From NCBI GenBank assembly GCA_015492715.1, contig WGEO01000014.1, positions 1 to 38,591 of the forward strand: a stretch of DNA of 38,591 bases. The letters are read 5' to 3'. The position numbers and the translations under genes are program-made. Shown one piece after another: positions 1,507 through 12,319 of the stretch; within the stretch, counting starts at the first letter, position 1; each line of letters begins with the position of its first letter. Source of the DNA: Phycisphaerales bacterium. GTDB lineage: Bacteria > Planctomycetota > Phycisphaerae > Phycisphaerales > UBA1924. The notes under the pieces are model-generated. The model saw only the letters and a program-made list of their open reading frames with translations, made no database searches and had not been told where the DNA came from.

Positions 1507-1914
1507 ATGAAGGTCAAGCGCATCGCGAATCGTGGTTTTACGCTGGTCGAGATTCTCATCGTCGTCGTGATCCTGGGCATCCTGGCTGCGGTCGTGGTGC
1601 CCCAGTTCACCAATGCCGCCGATGATGCCCGTGGGGGCAACATCGCCACGCAGGTGAGCACGATCCAGAATCAGATCGAGCTGTATCGTGCGAAGGAAGG
1701 CTCGTACCCGACCCTCGCCGAGATGCAGGCCGATTCGGCGGATCCCGACTTTGCCGGTCAGGGCTGGGGTGTCCTCGTGGATGGCAACTACCTGAAGAGC
1801 CCGGCTGCGAACCCGTACTTCAGCGGCAACGCCGCGTATGCCATCGCCGCCGACAACAGCGCCGCGTGGCAGTATGACGAGAACACGGGCGAGATCCAGG
1901 CGATCGTTCCGTAA
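1507..1914 (+). CDS. Type II secretion/type IV pilus-like major pseudopilin (GspG-like)
   Basis: MKVKRIANRGFTLVEILIVVVILGILAAVVVPQF: class III prepilin signal (G/FTLVE) plus hydrophobic helix. C-terminal head contains YPTLAEM...NPYFSG...AAWQYDENTGEI. AAGGAG upstream. Confidence 0.93.
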   Translation: MKVKRIANRGFTLVEILIVVVILGILAAVVVPQFTNAADDARGGNIATQVSTIQNQIELYRAKEGSYPTLAEMQADSADPDFAGQGWGVLVDGNYLKSPAANPYFSGNAAYAIAADNSAAWQYDENTGEIQAIVP

Positions 1915-2018: not shown

Positions 2019-2462
2019 ATGCGCATGGGCAGTCTGAGCGTGGGCAAGAAGAACGCATTCACGCTCGTGGAGATCCTGATCGTCGTCGTGATCCTCGGGA
2101 TTCTGGCGGCCGTGGTCACCGCACAGTTTGCCGGGGCCAGCGAGTCGGCTCAGGAGGAGACGACCCGCCATGAACTGCAGAAACTTCGGCGGGCGATCGA
2201 GATCTACATGACGCGCAACGGCAACGCCCTCCCCAATGTGGTTGCCGGCGACGGCACCTGGGGCGAGATCGTGCAGCCCGGGGAGTATCTGAGCGGTCCT
2301 CCGCAGAATTCCTGGGTCGGCGGACCGAACGCGGGCGTCATCATCATCCGGGACACGCCCGACGATGCGTACCAGACGACGCATGGGTGGATCTACGACG
2401 ACACGACGGGACAGGTCTGGGCCGGGGGCTTCGATGGCAACGACGAGCCGTATGCCAAGTGA
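2019..2462 (+). CDS. Second pseudopilin (GspG-like paralogue)
   Basis: MRMGSLSVGKKNAFTLVEILIVVVILGILAAVVTAQF. The prepilin helix is nearly identical to the first pseudopilin. AAGGAG at 2005-2010 precedes the ATG at 2019. Confidence 0.9.
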   Translation: MRMGSLSVGKKNAFTLVEILIVVVILGILAAVVTAQFAGASESAQEETTRHELQKLRRAIEIYMTRNGNALPNVVAGDGTWGEIVQPGEYLSGPPQNSWVGGPNAGVIIIRDTPDDAYQTTHGWIYDDTTGQVWAGGFDGNDEPYAK

Positions 2463-2581: not shown

Positions 2582-2887
2582 ATGCGCAAGGACGGATATC
2601 GCAACGGCGTGCTGACGGCAATCGCGCTGCTTCTGGGCGTGCTCGTGCTGGGTCAGGGGAGCGGCCCAAGCCAGGCCGGGGCGGGCCAGATCCAGCATGC
2701 CGGGCAGACACTCACCCCGCCCGAAGGTGGGGGGATGATCAGCGCCGCCGAGCAGCGCAAGATGATGCTGCGCGAGTTGCAGGCGATGCGACGCCAGATG
2801 GAGGAGATGCGAGCCCTGATGAGCCGGGGCCTGAGCGTGAAGGTGACGGAGATGCCCGAGATCCGCCTGCCCAAGGATGACGGCTGA
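2582..2887 (+). CDS. Small single-pass/secreted protein with a Met-rich helical segment, in the pseudopilin cluster
   Basis: MRKDGYRNGVLTAIALLLGVLVLGQG signal/TM, then KMMLRELQAMRRQMEEMRALMSRGL. Collinear with neighbours. Confidence 0.6.
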   Translation: MRKDGYRNGVLTAIALLLGVLVLGQGSGPSQAGAGQIQHAGQTLTPPEGGGMISAAEQRKMMLRELQAMRRQMEEMRALMSRGLSVKVTEMPEIRLPKDDG

Positions 2888-2913: not shown

Positions 2914-3453
2914 ATGTGTGGACATCGTGCCCCTGGGTCGCGGGGGTACACCCTGGTCGAGATCCTGGTGGTCGTGACGATCATGGGGTTGTCGGCGGCG
3001 ATGGTGATCCCGTCGATGGCTCAGGCGGGGACCTTCCGGGTTCGCTCTGCCCTGCGCACACTGGTGGCGGACATCACCTTTGCGCAGTCCGATGCGATGG
3101 CCTTCCAGCAGGGGCGGGCGGTGGTGTTTTATCCTGAGGAGAACCGATATGTGGTCGTCCGGGTGACAGGTCCCGTCCTGGACCCCGTCAACGACGCGCT
3201 GTACGACCCGTCGCGCGAGGACGACATCATGGGCATGGACTTCGACGACGAGCGTTTCGGCGGGGCACGGATGACCTCGGCGCTGTTCGACGGCGAATCT
3301 GTGCTTATCTTCGATGAGTTGGGGGCACCCGTGACGGAGCCGCAGGGGACGACACCCAGCAGCGGTGGGATGATCACGATCGAGGGCGACGGCGAGGAAT
3401 ACTGGATCGCGGTGGACGGATTCACGGGACACATCACGACCGGACGGAACTGA
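2914..3453 (+). CDS. GspH/FimT-like pseudopilin
   Basis: GYTLVEILVVVTIMGLSAAMVIPSMAQAGTFRVRSALRTLVADITFAQSDAMAFQQGRAVVFYPEENRYVV is typical GspH/FimT N-terminal architecture. Confidence 0.85.
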   Translation: MCGHRAPGSRGYTLVEILVVVTIMGLSAAMVIPSMAQAGTFRVRSALRTLVADITFAQSDAMAFQQGRAVVFYPEENRYVVVRVTGPVLDPVNDALYDPSREDDIMGMDFDDERFGGARMTSALFDGESVLIFDELGAPVTEPQGTTPSSGGMITIEGDGEEYWIAVDGFTGHITTGRN

Positions 3454-3473: not shown

Positions 3474-3692
3474 ATGCGGAACGGATCGAGACGCCTGTCG
3501 CGGGTCGCCCTCGTGCTTGTGGGCGGGGGGATCTCCGTCAGTCTGCTGTTCTGGGCGAAACTCCGCCTTGTGACGCAGATTCCGCGCACGACCTATGCCG
3601 AGCCGGCGTCTCCGGGCGATGCGGCGGATCGCCCTGCGGACGAGTCCGAGGGTATGCGTGAGGACGATCGTCCGGACGATCCCGGGTCCTGA
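3474..3692 (+). CDS. Small membrane-anchored protein with charged C-terminal tail
   Basis: MRNGSRRLSRVALVLVGGGISVSLLFWAKLRL TM segment. Collinear in the cluster. Confidence 0.5.
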   Translation: MRNGSRRLSRVALVLVGGGISVSLLFWAKLRLVTQIPRTTYAEPASPGDAADRPADESEGMREDDRPDDPGS

Positions 3693-3926: not shown

Positions 3927-6900
3927 ATGGTCATGCCCAAGCGTTGCGACGAGACGATGAGCGTTCGGACGGTTCGTCTGACGGCGGTTCTGAGCCTTCT
4001 TGCCGGGACTCCGACGGCGCTGGCCCAGGGGCTCGGCGAGATGGATCTGTCGGATCTTGCCGGGCTGGTGGGTCAGGTGGATCAGACGACGGAGGAGGCG
4101 AATGTCGACGAGCAGCCCAGCACGGGCCATGTGAATGTCGATGAGTACGAGCAGATCGAGCTGCACTTCCGGGACGAGGACATCGCGACGGCGCTGCAGT
4201 TGCTGGCGATGCAGAGCGAGCGGAGCATCGTGACGACGCAGAATGTGTCGGGCACGGTGACGGCAAATCTGTATGGGGTGAGTTTCGAGGAGGCACTCGA
4301 CGCCATCCTGCTCTACAACGGCTTCGGGTACATCGAGCAGGGCGGGACGATCTATGTGATGCCCAAGGAGGACATCCTGGCGTGGGAGCAGGCCCAGCGG
4401 AAGATGGAGACGGCGGTCATCCGCCTGAACTATCTGAACGCGGTGGACGCCGCCCAGTTCGCCCAGAGCATTCTGAGCCCGGAGGGCACGATCACGACCA
4501 ACGGGGTGACGCCGGACTTTCAGCTGAACGACAGCGTGCCGGTGGGCAAGGACAACTACTCGCTGGATGCCGTGCTGGTGGTGCACGACTATCCGGAGCA
4601 GATCCAGGAGATCCGGGATCTGGTTGCCCAGCTGGACACCAAGCCGATGAGTGTGCTCGTCGAGGCGACGATCCTGCAGAAGTCCATCAGCGATGCGTAC
4701 GGGTACGGCGTGGACTTCTCGATCCTGTCGAACCTCGAGTTTCTGGAGTTCGTGGGAGCGGGCGGCCCGCTGGGGGTCGTCGACAGCCTGATCAAGGGCG
4801 AGAAGGCCATCACGGGCGACAGCGGGGACAGCGGCGGCACGGCGCCGCTGCCGAGCGATGGTGGCGGCACGGGCATCGTGCAGAGCGTGGGCAACACGAG
4901 CGGTCCCGGCGGGCTGAAGATCGGTGTGGTCAGCAACGATGTCGCGGTGTTCGTGCGTCTGCTCGATGAGATGGGCGACACGACGATCCTGAGCAATCCG
5001 AAGTTGCTGACGCTGAACCGCCAGCCGGCGAGCGTGCAGGTCGGTCGTCGGATCGGGTATCTGAGCACGACGACGACGGACACGACGACGCAGCAGACGG
5101 TGGAGTTCCTCGACACGGGCACGCAGTTGTACTTCCGTCCGTTTGCGACGACCAACGGGGACATCCGTCTGGAGTTGCGTCCCGAGGTGAGCCAGCCGAT
5201 CATCCGGAGCGTGACGGACGCGACGGGGGCGGCGGTGACGGTCCCCGACGAGGACACGAGCCAGCTGTCGACGAATGTGCTCGTGCGCGACGGGCAGACG
5301 GTGGTGCTGGGCGGTCTGTTCACCGAGCGGACCAACAGCAGCCGGCGTCAGGTTCCCGTGCTGGGTGATGTGCCGATCTTCGGGCATGCGTTCCGCGGCG
5401 AGGACAACTCGGTCGATCGGGCGGAGATCATCTTCCTGATCACGCCGTCGATCGTCGAGGACGAGTCGATGGCCGACGCCGGGATCCGGGCGTTGGAGGA
5501 GGTGGACTTTGCGCGGGCCGGTGCTCGCGAGGGTCTGCTGTTCTGGAGCCGCGAGCGTCGCGCGAGCCAGCTCCTGGTCGATGCCCAGCGTCTGGCGGCC
5601 GAGGGCGATACGCGCCGGGCGTTGAACAAGGTGCAGCGGGCGTTGGCGCTCCAGCCGACGATGAGCGATGCGATCCGTCTGCGTGAGCAGTTGATTCATG
5701 ATCCGACGATCTGGCCCAGCCGGAGCGGGCTGGAGGAGGTCGTCAACCGCGAGACCGAGGCGCGGATCGACATGTTCCGTGAGGCGATCGAGCAGCGCCT
5801 GGCCCAGGAGCAGCAGGATGCCGCGAACGGTGATGCGCTTGCGGGTGTCGATGCGGGCGACCAGGGCGAGTCCTTCGGGGCCGACGAGGGCTTCTCGGGC
5901 GGCTCGTTCGATGGCGATGCCTCCTTCGATAGTGCAGGCGCGGGCGAGGCGGACCCGTCGTTCGGCGGGAGTGACTCGTTCAGTGGTGACGATTCGTTCA
6001 GTGGCGATGACTCCTTCAGCGGCGATGATTCGTTCGAGGCGAGCGACACCTTCGGCGAGAGCGTCGAGGGCCAGGACAACGCCAACGCTCAGCATGACGC
6101 CTTCGGTGCGACGGAGGACGAGCGCGACGCTGACAGCGGTGATGCGTTCGCGGACGGCTCGTCCGGCGAGGATAGCGCTGACGGCGAGGCGTTCGCGAGC
6201 GATCCGGTCGAGGACGATTCCTTCGGTGGCGATGGGTTCGAGTCGGGCGATCTCGCCCTTCAGGAAGAGCCCAGCACCGAAAGCGACGCCAGCGGCGATT
6301 CCGATGCGTCGTTTGCCGGTGCCGAGGACATGCCTTCACAGGGCGAAGCCTCGTTCGCCGACGGCGGTGATGCGGCGGCTGGCGATGACGATGCTTTCTC
6401 CAGCGAGATGGACGGCGACAGCGGCGAGATGGCGTTCGTCAGCCAGATCGAGGGCAGTTTCGAGCAGCAGTGGCAGATGCGTTCGGCGTATCTGGCGCTG
6501 GTGAACGAGCAGATCCAGCAGGCGATCGAGCGATTCGCCGATGAGCACGGGCGCTTCCCGACGCTGGAGGAGATGAGTGGCACGCCGGCGGACCCGTCTC
6601 GCGGCTCGTCGTTCGGGGCGTTCCTCGACCAGGGCTACATGAGCGAGGCGCCGGTGAATCCGTTCTTCCCCAGCGGCAGTGCGAGCAGCGTGGGCGAGAT
6701 CGGATCGCAGGCCGCGTTCGAGTACGACCCGCAGACGGGCACGATGCTCGCGAACATCGGGGATTTCACGAGCGTGATGGAGTCCGGCGACATGACGCCG
6801 GTCAGCGCTCAGACGCTCGCGTCGATGATGGAGCGTCATCTGCAGCAGCAGATCGAGGTCTTCCATCAGATCACGGGCTCGTACCCGACGCTCGAGCAGC

Positions 6901-7130
6901 TCCGCAGTGCTCCGATGGACGGTTCCAGCGCGACCAGTTTCGGGGTGCTGTTCGACGAGGGTCTGATCGACAGCGCGCCGGCCAACCCATTCTTCGCCGG
7001 TGAGCAGGCGACGAGTGTCGGTGCTCCGGGCGAGCACGCCGCATGGATCTATGACGAGCAGACGCACACGATCACGGCCGCCCGCGGGGTGTTTGCGAGT
7101 GCGGACGAGGAATCTTCGCCCGAGGACTGA
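3927..7130 (+). CDS. Secretin (GspD/PilQ family) with TPR-like segment, acidic Asp/Ser-rich linker and two C-terminal pseudopilin-head-like domains
   Basis: STN/N0-like segment (IELHFRDEDIATALQLLAMQSERSIVTTQNVSGTVTANLYGVSFEEAL), N1-like segment, and secretin core (VLVRDGQTVVLGGLFTERTNSSRRQVPVLGDVPIFGHAFR...EIIFLITPSIV). Start could be 3927, 3933 or 3957; 3957 gives the cleanest signal peptide (MSVRTVRLTAVLSLLAGTPTALAQG). Confidence 0.92.
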   Translation: MVMPKRCDETMSVRTVRLTAVLSLLAGTPTALAQGLGEMDLSDLAGLVGQVDQTTEEANVDEQPSTGHVNVDEYEQIELHFRDEDIATALQLLAMQSERSIVTTQNVSGTVTANLYGVSFEEALDAILLYNGFGYIEQGGTIYVMPKEDILAWEQAQRKMETAVIRLNYLNAVDAAQFAQSILSPEGTITTNGVTPDFQLNDSVPVGKDNYSLDAVLVVHDYPEQIQEIRDLVAQLDTKPMSVLVEATILQKSISDAYGYGVDFSILSNLEFLEFVGAGGPLGVVDSLIKGEKAITGDSGDSGGTAPLPSDGGGTGIVQSVGNTSGPGGLKIGVVSNDVAVFVRLLDEMGDTTILSNPKLLTLNRQPASVQVGRRIGYLSTTTTDTTTQQTVEFLDTGTQLYFRPFATTNGDIRLELRPEVSQPIIRSVTDATGAAVTVPDEDTSQLSTNVLVRDGQTVVLGGLFTERTNSSRRQVPVLGDVPIFGHAFRGEDNSVDRAEIIFLITPSIVEDESMADAGIRALEEVDFARAGAREGLLFWSRERRASQLLVDAQRLAAEGDTRRALNKVQRALALQPTMSDAIRLREQLIHDPTIWPSRSGLEEVVNRETEARIDMFREAIEQRLAQEQQDAANGDALAGVDAGDQGESFGADEGFSGGSFDGDASFDSAGAGEADPSFGGSDSFSGDDSFSGDDSFSGDDSFEASDTFGESVEGQDNANAQHDAFGATEDERDADSGDAFADGSSGEDSADGEAFASDPVEDDSFGGDGFESGDLALQEEPSTESDASGDSDASFAGAEDMPSQGEASFADGGDAAAGDDDAFSSEMDGDSGEMAFVSQIEGSFEQQWQMRSAYLALVNEQIQQAIERFADEHGRFPTLEEMSGTPADPSRGSSFGAFLDQGYMSEAPVNPFFPSGSASSVGEIGSQAAFEYDPQTGTMLANIGDFTSVMESGDMTPVSAQTLASMMERHLQQQIEVFHQITGSYPTLEQLRSAPMDGSSATSFGVLFDEGLIDSAPANPFFAGEQATSVGAPGEHAAWIYDEQTHTITAARGVFASADEESSPED
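5970..6041 (+). repeat. Tandem 18-bp repeat (4 copies) encoding SDSFSG-DDSFSG-DDSFSG-DDSFEA
   Basis: In-frame hexapeptide repeats read directly from 5970-5987, 5988-6005, 6006-6023 and 6024-6041. Confidence 0.9.
6451..6765 (+). other. Pseudopilin-head-like module 1 at the C-terminus of the secretin
   Basis: NEQIQQAIERFADEHGRFPTLEEMSGTPADPSRGSSFGAFLDQGYMSEAPVNPFFPSG...AAFEYDPQTGTMLANI parallels the 1507-1914 product NQIELYRAKEGSYPTLAEMQ...WGVLVDGNYLKSPAANPYFSG...AAWQYDENTGEIQAIV. Confidence 0.8.
6811..7085 (+). other. Pseudopilin-head-like module 2 at the C-terminus of the secretin
   Basis: ERHLQQQIEVFHQITGSYPTLEQLRSAPMDGSSATSFGVLFDEGLIDSAPANPFFAGEQATSVGAPGEHAAWIYDEQTHTITAAR. Same motif order as module 1; the PTLE motifs are 109 codons apart. 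Confidence 0.8.
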
Positions 7131-7188: not shown

Positions 7189-8433
7189 GTGAGCCGACGC
7201 ATGATCCAGCATGTCACGGGCCCCTTCGGGGCCCTTTTTCTGTCCTCGCTGATGCTCGCGGGCTGTGCCGGGCACGGCAAGCACACGAGCCAGGGGCTGA
7301 GCCTTGCGCAGATGCGCTCTGCGCAGATCAAGAGCAGCACCGAGTGGACCATGGCCCATCAGGCGTTCCTGGCGGGCAACCTCGACAAGGCGCTGCGCAA
7401 GATCGACGAGGCGATCTCGCTGAATCCGATGGTCGCCAAGAGCCATCTGCTCAAGGGTCGGATTCTGATCGAGAAGGGGCGTCTGGGCGATGCGCTGGAG
7501 AGTCTGGACCTCGCGATCGAGTTCAAGCCGGAAGATCCCGAGGCGTACTACTACAAGGGCACCGTCTACGAGCGTCTGGAGCGTAGCGAGGAGGCATTGA
7601 AGGCCTATCAGACCGCCGGGAGCCTCGATCCGGAGAAGGCCCAGTATGCGATCGCCGCCAGCGAGGTGCTGGTCGACATGGGGCGGATCGACGAGGCCCT
7701 GGCGGTGCTCGAGACCTTCGCCAGCGCGAATCAGGACAATCCCGCGATCGTGCAGACGATGGGCACGATCGCGATGCTGCAGGAGCGCTACGACGATGCG
7801 GCGCGTCTGTTCAACGAGGCCCGCCTCCTGAGCCCCGAGGACTCGGGGATCCTCGAGGACCTCGCCGACGCGTTGATGGCCGACGGGCGATTCGCGGAGG
7901 CGGAGTTCTACCTGAACACGGTGCTGGCGGATCCGGCGCACGCGGATCGTCGTGATCTGAAGCAGATGCGGGCCCGCTGTCTGATCGAGCTGGATCGTCC
8001 GGTCGAGGCGCGGGCGCTGCTGCTGGAGTTGACCCGGGGCGAGGAAGGCTCGCGCGATGCCGGCGCGTGGATCGAGTTGGGGCGTGTCGCCTGGCAGCTG
8101 CGCGACCTGACGAATCTGCAACTGAGCGCCGATCGCGCGACGCGTCTGGCGCCCGAGTCCAGCGAGGCCTGGCTGCTCATGGCACTTGCCCGGCGTGAGG
8201 CGGGCCAGGAGGTCGCCGCGCTGGACGCAACGGATCGGGCGCTCGCGCTCGACAACCGTAATCAGACGGTGCTGATGCTGCGCGGGCTGATCCAGCAGGA
8301 ACTCGGGCGCCACGACGACGCCCTGGTGACGCTCCAGCAGGCGTACATCCTCGACCCGAGCAACGAGAGCGTGCGCACCCTGATCGACACGGTTCGACGG
8401 GCAAAGGCGCTGGCCATCGTCGAGGACGAGTAG
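7189..8433 (+). CDS. TPR-repeat lipoprotein
   Basis: GTG start, SRRMIQHVTGPFGALFLSSLMLAGC lipobox, multiple TPR-like repeats (AFLAGNLDKALRKIDEAISLNPMVAKSHLLKGRILIEKGRLGDALESLDLAIEFKPEDPEAYYYKGTVYERL). AAAGGAG upstream. Confidence 0.85.
   Translation: MSRRMIQHVTGPFGALFLSSLMLAGCAGHGKHTSQGLSLAQMRSAQIKSSTEWTMAHQAFLAGNLDKALRKIDEAISLNPMVAKSHLLKGRILIEKGRLGDALESLDLAIEFKPEDPEAYYYKGTVYERLERSEEALKAYQTAGSLDPEKAQYAIAASEVLVDMGRIDEALAVLETFASANQDNPAIVQTMGTIAMLQERYDDAARLFNEARLLSPEDSGILEDLADALMADGRFAEAEFYLNTVLADPAHADRRDLKQMRARCLIELDRPVEARALLLELTRGEEGSRDAGAWIELGRVAWQLRDLTNLQLSADRATRLAPESSEAWLLMALARREAGQEVAALDATDRALALDNRNQTVLMLRGLIQQELGRHDDALVTLQQAYILDPSNESVRTLIDTVRRAKALAIVEDE
7218..7239 (+). terminator. Intrinsic-terminator-like hairpin plus T5 inside the lipoprotein signal-peptide coding sequence
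   Basis: GGGCCCC-TTC-GGGGCCC-TTTTT read directly from the sequence. Confidence 0.5.
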
Positions 8434-10924: not shown

Positions 10925-12319
10925 ATGGGCGACCGGACAACGACCATCTTCACGGCGGACTTTCGGCGGGCGTTCGCCGAGGAGACCAAGGGCCTGCTTC
11001 GCAAGCGCTTTCTGTGGTTCACGGGCCTCGTCGGTGCCTTCGAACTGATCAATGCCGGGGTCGGGATCGTGCTCTCGCTCTGGGGCAGTGGCACCGACCA
11101 TCCCCACGCGGGCGATCATCTGACCGGGCACCTGCTTCATCTGTTCGTCGGACCCGTCTTCCTCGCGGCGTTCGTGCTCGATCTGCGTCGCCGGCTCTCC
11201 GATGCCATGATCCTCGGGGCGACCACGGCCCTCGTGGTGCTCCAGGGCGGGATGAACATCCTGATCGTCTACCTGTTCGAGGTGGGGGATGCTGCGGCGC
11301 TGCCGACCTGGGGTCGCGCGCTGATCGGCGTGCTGTTCACTCACATCCTCGCCTGCGCGTTTCTTCCGTGGACGGTCCGCCAGTGTCTTCGCCCGATCGT
11401 CTGGCTCGTTGCGATCAACGCCATGTTCCTGCTGGGGGTCAGTGATCTGGACCCGCAGCGCCGTGTCCTCGTGCTGTTGCTGAGTCCATTGGTCGGGCTG
11501 CCCGGGGCAGTGATCTGCGCGGTGCGGCAACTCCGGCGGGCCGAGCGGTCCAAGTTCCGTTTTCTCCAGTCGCGGTACGGCGAGGTCCGCAGGGAACTCA
11601 TGGATGCCCGCAAGGTACACGAGGACCTCTTTCCGGAGGCGATCGAGACCGGCCCGATCCGCCTGCGATATCGCTATGAGCCGATGCGTCAGATCGGGGG
11701 AGATTTCCTCTTTGCCCGCAGGGGCGACGAGGGCAGTGTGCTGGTGGTGCTGGCCGATGTGACCGGGCACGGGATTCCCGCCGCTCTGACGGTCAATCGC
11801 CTCTATGGCGAGCTCGAGCGCCTGACCGCCGAGCGCCCGTGGATCTCCCCGGGTGAGCTGCTGGAGGGCCTCAATCGGTATGCCCACCTGACCCTGGCGC
11901 CGCATTCGATCTATCTCACGGCGTTCTGTGCGCGGATCGATCCCGATGGCGGGCGGATGACCTATGCCAGCGCGGGGCATCCACCGGCGTTCTTGCGGAC
12001 CGTCGACGGACGCGTCGAGGAACTCGCGTCGACGACGATCGTGCTGGGGGCGGTGCCGGCAGGCAGCTTCCAGGCGGGTCAGGAGGAGCGGGCCTTTGCC
12101 CTGGGCGATTCGCTGGTGCTGTATACGGATGGGGCGATCGAGTGCCACGGGAGTGATGGGCAGATGTTCGGCATCGACCGCGTGCGGGCGATCCTGGCAT
12201 CTGGCGATGTGCGCCCGGGCGAGTGGACACGGATCATGATGGAGCGGGTCGAGTCCTTCCGCGACGGTCCCGCACGCGACGACACCCTCCTCGTCGAGGT
12301 CTACCGTCCGTTGCACTGA
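10925..12319 (+). CDS. Membrane-anchored SpoIIE/RsbU-type PP2C phosphatase
   Basis: Several N-terminal hydrophobic helices, then MRQIGGDFLFARRGDEGSVLVVLADVTGHGIPAALTVNRLYGEL...MTYASAGHPPAFL...DSLVLYTDGAIE. Confidence 0.9.
   Translation: MGDRTTTIFTADFRRAFAEETKGLLRKRFLWFTGLVGAFELINAGVGIVLSLWGSGTDHPHAGDHLTGHLLHLFVGPVFLAAFVLDLRRRLSDAMILGATTALVVLQGGMNILIVYLFEVGDAAALPTWGRALIGVLFTHILACAFLPWTVRQCLRPIVWLVAINAMFLLGVSDLDPQRRVLVLLLSPLVGLPGAVICAVRQLRRAERSKFRFLQSRYGEVRRELMDARKVHEDLFPEAIETGPIRLRYRYEPMRQIGGDFLFARRGDEGSVLVVLADVTGHGIPAALTVNRLYGELERLTAERPWISPGELLEGLNRYAHLTLAPHSIYLTAFCARIDPDGGRMTYASAGHPPAFLRTVDGRVEELASTTIVLGAVPAGSFQAGQEERAFALGDSLVLYTDGAIECHGSDGQMFGIDRVRAILASGDVRPGEWTRIMMERVESFRDGPARDDTLLVEVYRPLH

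Follow-up and report, generated by a model that had tools for sequence, protein, structure and literature searches.

A secretin with two pseudopilin-head modules on its C-terminal tail, and recurrent tail domains in a family of Phycisphaerales

The window, the 38,591-nucleotide stretch of DNA analysed here, comes from a fragmented Phycisphaerales MAG (2.68 Mb, 292 contigs) and contains a secretin gene amid genes for pseudopilins and small membrane proteins (Table 1). The arrangement recurs widely in the family as a cassette encoding a HEAT protein, the pseudopilins G1 and G2, a coiled-coil protein, the minor pseudopilin H, a small membrane protein, the secretin and a TPR lipoprotein. The last of these is possibly a pilotin-like partner of the secretin. 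Elsewhere on the contig lies a gene for a SpoIIE-type phosphatase (10925-12316), and in a congener (L149; here and below, L and G followed by three digits denote individual loci and genomes) a SpoIIE gene likewise lies close to the secretin.

Table 1. Coordinates of the features at the secretin locus, with the evidence for each assignment
Feature	Position	Strand	Evidence
GspG-like pseudopilin G1, closest gene to both modules	1507..1914	+	N_methyl 3.7e-8; TIGR01710 4.8e-17; head tree
Second pseudopilin G2; tails of related genera carry G2-type heads	2019..2462	+	Domain models, HMMs, head tree
Small membrane-anchored coiled-coil-like protein, cassette-conserved	2582..2887	+	Homologues at other loci
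GspH-like minor pseudopilin H	2914..3453	+	TIGR01708 1.5e-11
Small membrane protein, cassette-conserved	3474..3692	+	Homologues at other loci
Secretin with C-terminal tail	3927..7130	+	ORF; PF00263 1.1e-43
N0/STN domain	4149..4367	+	Pfam STN 1.5e-6; family N0 HMM built here
Secretin_N domain	4410..4649	+	Pfam 4.8e-7
Secretin core domain	4962..5459	+	PF00263
Helical TPR-like region after secretin domain, within family-conserved core	5514..5786	+	Homologues align to about residue 618; TPR-like from sequence reading
D/S-rich acidic linker, fast evolving	5838..6455	+	Composition; dN/dS about 0.53 in congener pair; Pfam blank
Module 1, pseudopilin head without alpha1-N	6456..6761	+	BLAST, HMMs, head tree, profile-profile
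Module 2, pseudopilin head without alpha1-N	6804..7076	+	BLAST, HMMs, head tree, profile-profile, AF2 model
TPR lipoprotein (LAGC lipobox), directly downstream of secretin	7189..8433	+	Pfam TPR; adjacent homologue throughout family

The secretin gene is a single open frame of 1067 codons, uninterrupted by any break. A signal peptide is followed by an N0 domain (about residues 80-147), one Secretin_N domain (residues 162-241) and the secretin core (residues 346-511), which scores 149 bits against a Pfam gathering score of 27.5. As a member of this family, the protein would be expected to form a multimeric ring in the outer membrane. GspD and PilQ secretins share its order of signal peptide, N0, one Secretin_N and core, as well as an adjoining TPR lipoprotein gene. 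Unlike them, the window secretin falls under the curated cut-offs of both class models, with 209.3 bits against 351.35 for the GspD equivalog TIGR02517 and 208.2 bits against 284.35 for the PilQ model TIGR02515, and adds an acidic linker of about 200 aa and two probably folded heads. The linker (residues ~638-843) is rich in D, S, G and F, carries a net charge of about -57 over 205 residues and has no match in Pfam. The modules, each of about 100 aa, occupy residues ~844-945 and ~960-1050, and their motifs AAFEYD (929) and AAWIYD (1038) are spaced by exactly 109 codons. An earlier note, made from the sequence of the window, had placed a secretin core, an acidic linker and two modules about 109 codons apart in one ORF; the ORF, the Pfam domains and the motif spacing agree on this architecture.

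The T2SS secretins that have been described terminate in an S-domain or a flexible tail; a pilotin lipoprotein binds the C-terminal S-domain, and ExeD and EpsD, both T2SS secretins, form pentadecamers (PMC6532946). By these precedents, the heads of the window secretin would be periplasmic and arranged around the ring. The tail would then resemble the S-domain in making the secretin C-terminus a periplasmic attachment site, whereas an S-domain is short, binds a pilotin and does not reproduce the fold of a different subunit of the machine.

In BLAST comparisons with the window G1 protein, module 1 is 37% identical over 81 aa (E 4e-15) and module 2 is 41% identical (E 1e-16), and the two modules are 43% identical to each other (E 8e-25). 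Shuffling gave z-scores of 20 for module 1 with the pilin, 20 for module 2 with the pilin and 30 for the two modules, with none of 1000 shuffles reaching the real score. A head HMM built from 33 other loci, leaving out the window pilin, matched both modules (E 1e-8 and 1e-12). In profile-profile comparison, the six modules of the window's genus matched G1 with 99% probability (E 3e-18) and G2 with 97.5%, against 0.2% for the GspH-like H used as a control; the modules were placed in no unrelated family. Chance similarity is ruled out by the shuffles together with the profile comparison, and the homology of both modules to the head of a GspG-like pseudopilin, which the earlier note had read from shared motifs, is confirmed at the level of sequence.

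What the modules match in G1 is the alpha1-C helix, the alpha-beta loop and the beta hairpin of GspG-type major pseudopilins (TIGR01710, PF08334). The alignment of module 1 starts at about mature residue 32 of G1, just beyond the hydrophobic polymerisation half of the helix. In contrast to GspG-type pseudopilins, the modules are fused, in tandem, to a different protein at its C-terminus and lack the prepilin leader, the methylated Phe and the TM/polymerisation helix. The tail gives no match to N_methyl, the class III leader, methylation motif and hydrophobic alpha1-N all being missing from it, and its maximum 19-residue Kyte-Doolittle hydropathy of 0.65 indicates no TM segment, which bears out a further observation of the earlier note.

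Pfam assigned the modules to no recognised family, and on the parent G1 its T2SSG model gave only a weak match just below cut-off (5e-4); the head assignment is therefore based on comparing the modules, pairwise and by profile, with pilins of the locus itself. Matches of the modules to HNH_repeat and HepT-like models fell below cut-off and were taken as chance. A first scan of the genome contigs with the modules alone as query returned nothing. Against PDB sequences, a profile of the modules alone ranked MutY (E ~0.1) over GspG (0.27-0.56), none of these being significant; with true pilins included in the profile, GspG matched at E 0.004, which is not independent proof because the query then contained pilins.

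The structural check suggested in the earlier note was answered in part. An AF2 model of module 2 (pLDDT 79.8) displays pilin-head topology, with an alpha1-C helix, an alpha-beta loop and a beta hairpin, and the best eight Foldseek matches in the PDB are pseudopilins or pilins (EpsG, PulG, PilA1), each individually insignificant (E > 1, TM ~0.4). The model of the tandem, calculated from three sequences, was too poor for use (pLDDT 39.9).

Both other genomes of the genus, the Phycisphaerales MAGs OFTM8 (G501) and OFTM188 (G502), carry the same tail architecture, with modules about 47-50% identical to those of the window. Between the congeners (L068 and L069), dN/dS from simple NG86 counts over short segments is 0.14 for the core, 0.28 for module 1, 0.20 for module 2 and 0.53 for the linker. 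The values for the modules lie below that of the linker: the modules are retained under purifying selection, and the linker is much less constrained. Elsewhere in the family, dN/dS is 0.13-0.16 for G2-type heads and 0.06 for a second N0 domain carried on the tail, so that captured domains range overall from 0.06 to 0.28 against 0.33-0.61 for the adjoining linkers in the same pairs. The fragmented state of the source assembly might invite the suspicion of an assembly or annotation artefact, but with the fusion present in two further MAGs at such divergence and under this pattern of selection, the chance of one is negligible, and the assembly chimera considered in the earlier note is ruled out.

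Of the 163 genomes of the family, 158 yielded a secretin orthologue. The 129 distinct secretins that were read sample each genus about once, with further relatives of positives added, and the frequencies that follow are therefore not unbiased. The operon is conserved, and the tail beyond residue ~620 is hypervariable in length and sequence and looks disordered. Profiles for the G1, G2 and H heads and for N0 were run on all tails. A pseudopilin head was present in 13 of the 129, from about eight of some 74 genera, and a second N0, lying far downstream of the core, in eight; one tail (L133, G459) holds both. G1-type heads occur in the window's genus and L081 (G532), and nine other tails carry G2-type heads; the heads thus derive from two pseudopilin paralogues. 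The second-N0 tails are those of genus g2 and its kin (L116, L121, L195, L205, L232 and L235), L131 (G426) and L133. None of the 129 tails was matched by the H HMM. The tail of L107 (G453), at first counted as head-less, has a head remnant at the end of the ORF; compared with the sister species, a frameshift interrupts it, through either a MAG error or real decay. Outside the family, 20 secretin loci from other families of the order have one N0 each and no heads, and in a search of 400 genomes of the order the secretin-sized ORFs with heads, among the matches listed, came only from the window's family. Several other long secretins, in the phylum and in the source genome, owe their length mainly to N-terminal or HEAT-like repeats and contain neither a head nor a second N0. 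The tails of most relatives have no recognisable domain, implying that the family can do without the module, which may represent lineage-specific tuning or even be neutral.

The origin of the tail domains was traced in two trees. In the head tree, the six modules of the window's genus fall in a single clade (100/98), divided into a module 1 set and a module 2 set, from which it follows that the tandem is older than the genus. This clade groups with the window G1 gene with moderate support (84/93), and the nine G2-type tails make up a clade of their own beside the G2 genes (99/94). Descent of the window modules from the adjacent GspG-like gene is well supported. The secretin-core tree requires at least three separate gains of heads (the window's genus, G532 and a further clade) and at least three of N0 (genus g2, G426 and G459). 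The same tail slot has repeatedly received domains of the machine in related genera, namely a G1 head, a G2 head or a second N0.

At the DNA level, tail and source gene are still similar in L105 (G2) and, for N0, in L116, L121 and L232, with both copies running in the same direction in every case. The tail of L109 (G470) contains an in-frame 67-bp copy of its own G1 gene, at 85% identity, that codes for the alpha1-C helix only and is missing from the close relatives L206 and L216. This copy is a recent capture, in which domain recruitment is caught mid-step, and the fragment itself may be neutral. The tail domains are thus recruited by duplication from the locus itself. At five head-bearing loci with all genes on the contig (the window, L081, L105, L132 and L133), the three pilin genes have been retained, so the tail is no replacement for them.

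How the pseudopilus is guided to the secretin and stopped there is an open question in T2SS and type IV pili, partly owing to the transient nature of the contacts. Secretin C-termini lie on the periplasmic side, and known secretin rings have 12-15 subunits; each ring of the window secretin would therefore display some 24-30 heads around the path of the pseudopilus. These considerations have led us to a model, to which we give somewhat less than an even chance, whereby the tail is a flexible acidic tether and the heads are non-polymerising mimics that act on the pseudopilus at the channel. The neighbouring pseudopilin gene was duplicated into the tail minus the codons for its first ~30 mature residues, and tandem duplication followed before the genus radiated. 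A head without alpha1-N would be unable to enter the membrane or polymerise, and might still bind the partners of the real head, be they neighbouring or minor pseudopilins or filament-borne cargo; this binding would dock or centre the pseudopilus there, or limit it. The roles that the earlier note proposed for the tethered heads, capping, gating or docking the pseudopilus or binding substrate, are compatible with these results. The second N0 on the tails of relatives would fit the same scheme, and the occurrence of both heads and N0 there suggests a rule of displaying a domain that the machine already recognises. A wider version, which we hold more tentatively, is that such tethers have evolved repeatedly by self-mimicry: tails would copy interaction domains of the machine, the array of heads would sense or limit the pseudopilus, and the slot would be re-tuned by fresh duplications from the locus.

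Pseudopilin heads contact secreted proteins, and a rather unlikely alternative to the docking model is that the many tethered heads concentrate cargo at the entrance of the secretin. Tail domains differ between lineages, as cargo might, and the identity of only 37-41% between modules and parental head would fit a new ligand, but the second N0 of other lineages is no obvious cargo binder. The main alternative, also unlikely in our estimate, is neutral capture, in which a disordered, weakly constrained tail takes up in-frame duplications and harmless folded inserts persist. The hypervariability of the tails, the partial recent copy in G470, and source genes at the same locus, several with remaining DNA similarity, would all be expected from such a process. 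For the heads and N0, the selection on captured domains and the domain boundaries argue against it: the domains have lower dN/dS than the linkers beside them, the cut points lie near the alpha1-N/alpha1-C junction, G2-type heads are retained across a deep clade, and G1, G2 and N0 are found in tails and the H head never. Doubtful, finally, is a purely inhibitory decoy, in which heads bound to the side or tip of pseudopili would stop them from passing the secretin and turn a pilus machine into a pure secretion machine; a head without alpha1-N could bind and not extend, and a ring of such heads, the TM segment being absent, would presumably act at the exit.

The docking model, like its alternatives, concerns a new architecture of a known machine and not a new machine. 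No published description of a secretin-pseudopilin fusion was found in the open-access literature, in keeping with the earlier note, which knew of none, nor was a comparable self-copying of machine domains onto a secretin tail. Several times, evolution has covalently tied the head of the filament to the channel, and it has likewise given the channel an extra N0 copied from its own. Should the heads have kept their ancestral partners, the fusions would be natural soluble probes of pseudopilus-secretin contacts. Different stages of recruitment coexist in the family: some tails hold single heads, others tandem heads, one a head together with N0, and one a fresh capture of 67 bp.

Other features were seen among the secretins surveyed. 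A secretin from another planctomycete family (L273, G003) also has a folded C-terminal addition, here a HEAT-like repeat extension; it belongs to the same phylum, but the domain is unrelated and includes no pilin head or second N0. The source genome itself has a second secretin (L264, C110:2-5509), encoded in an 1836-aa open frame in which many repeated units resembling Secretin_N precede the core. L161, titled 'Cyanobacteria bacterium CYA', has a typical Phycisphaerales locus, and the title looks misassigned. The tail of L117 (G488) contains a tandem array of about five WW.SPEF..F...W repeats. A short hairpin-like motif, for example VIPLPGGGALHVEWP or IPMHGGLVWIAIPRGMF, is located near the tail end in L088, L089, L099 and L122, in L080, L083, L108 and L115, and in L109, and many tails terminate in a V-P-T/E-like motif; these tail-end motifs are possibly docking peptides.
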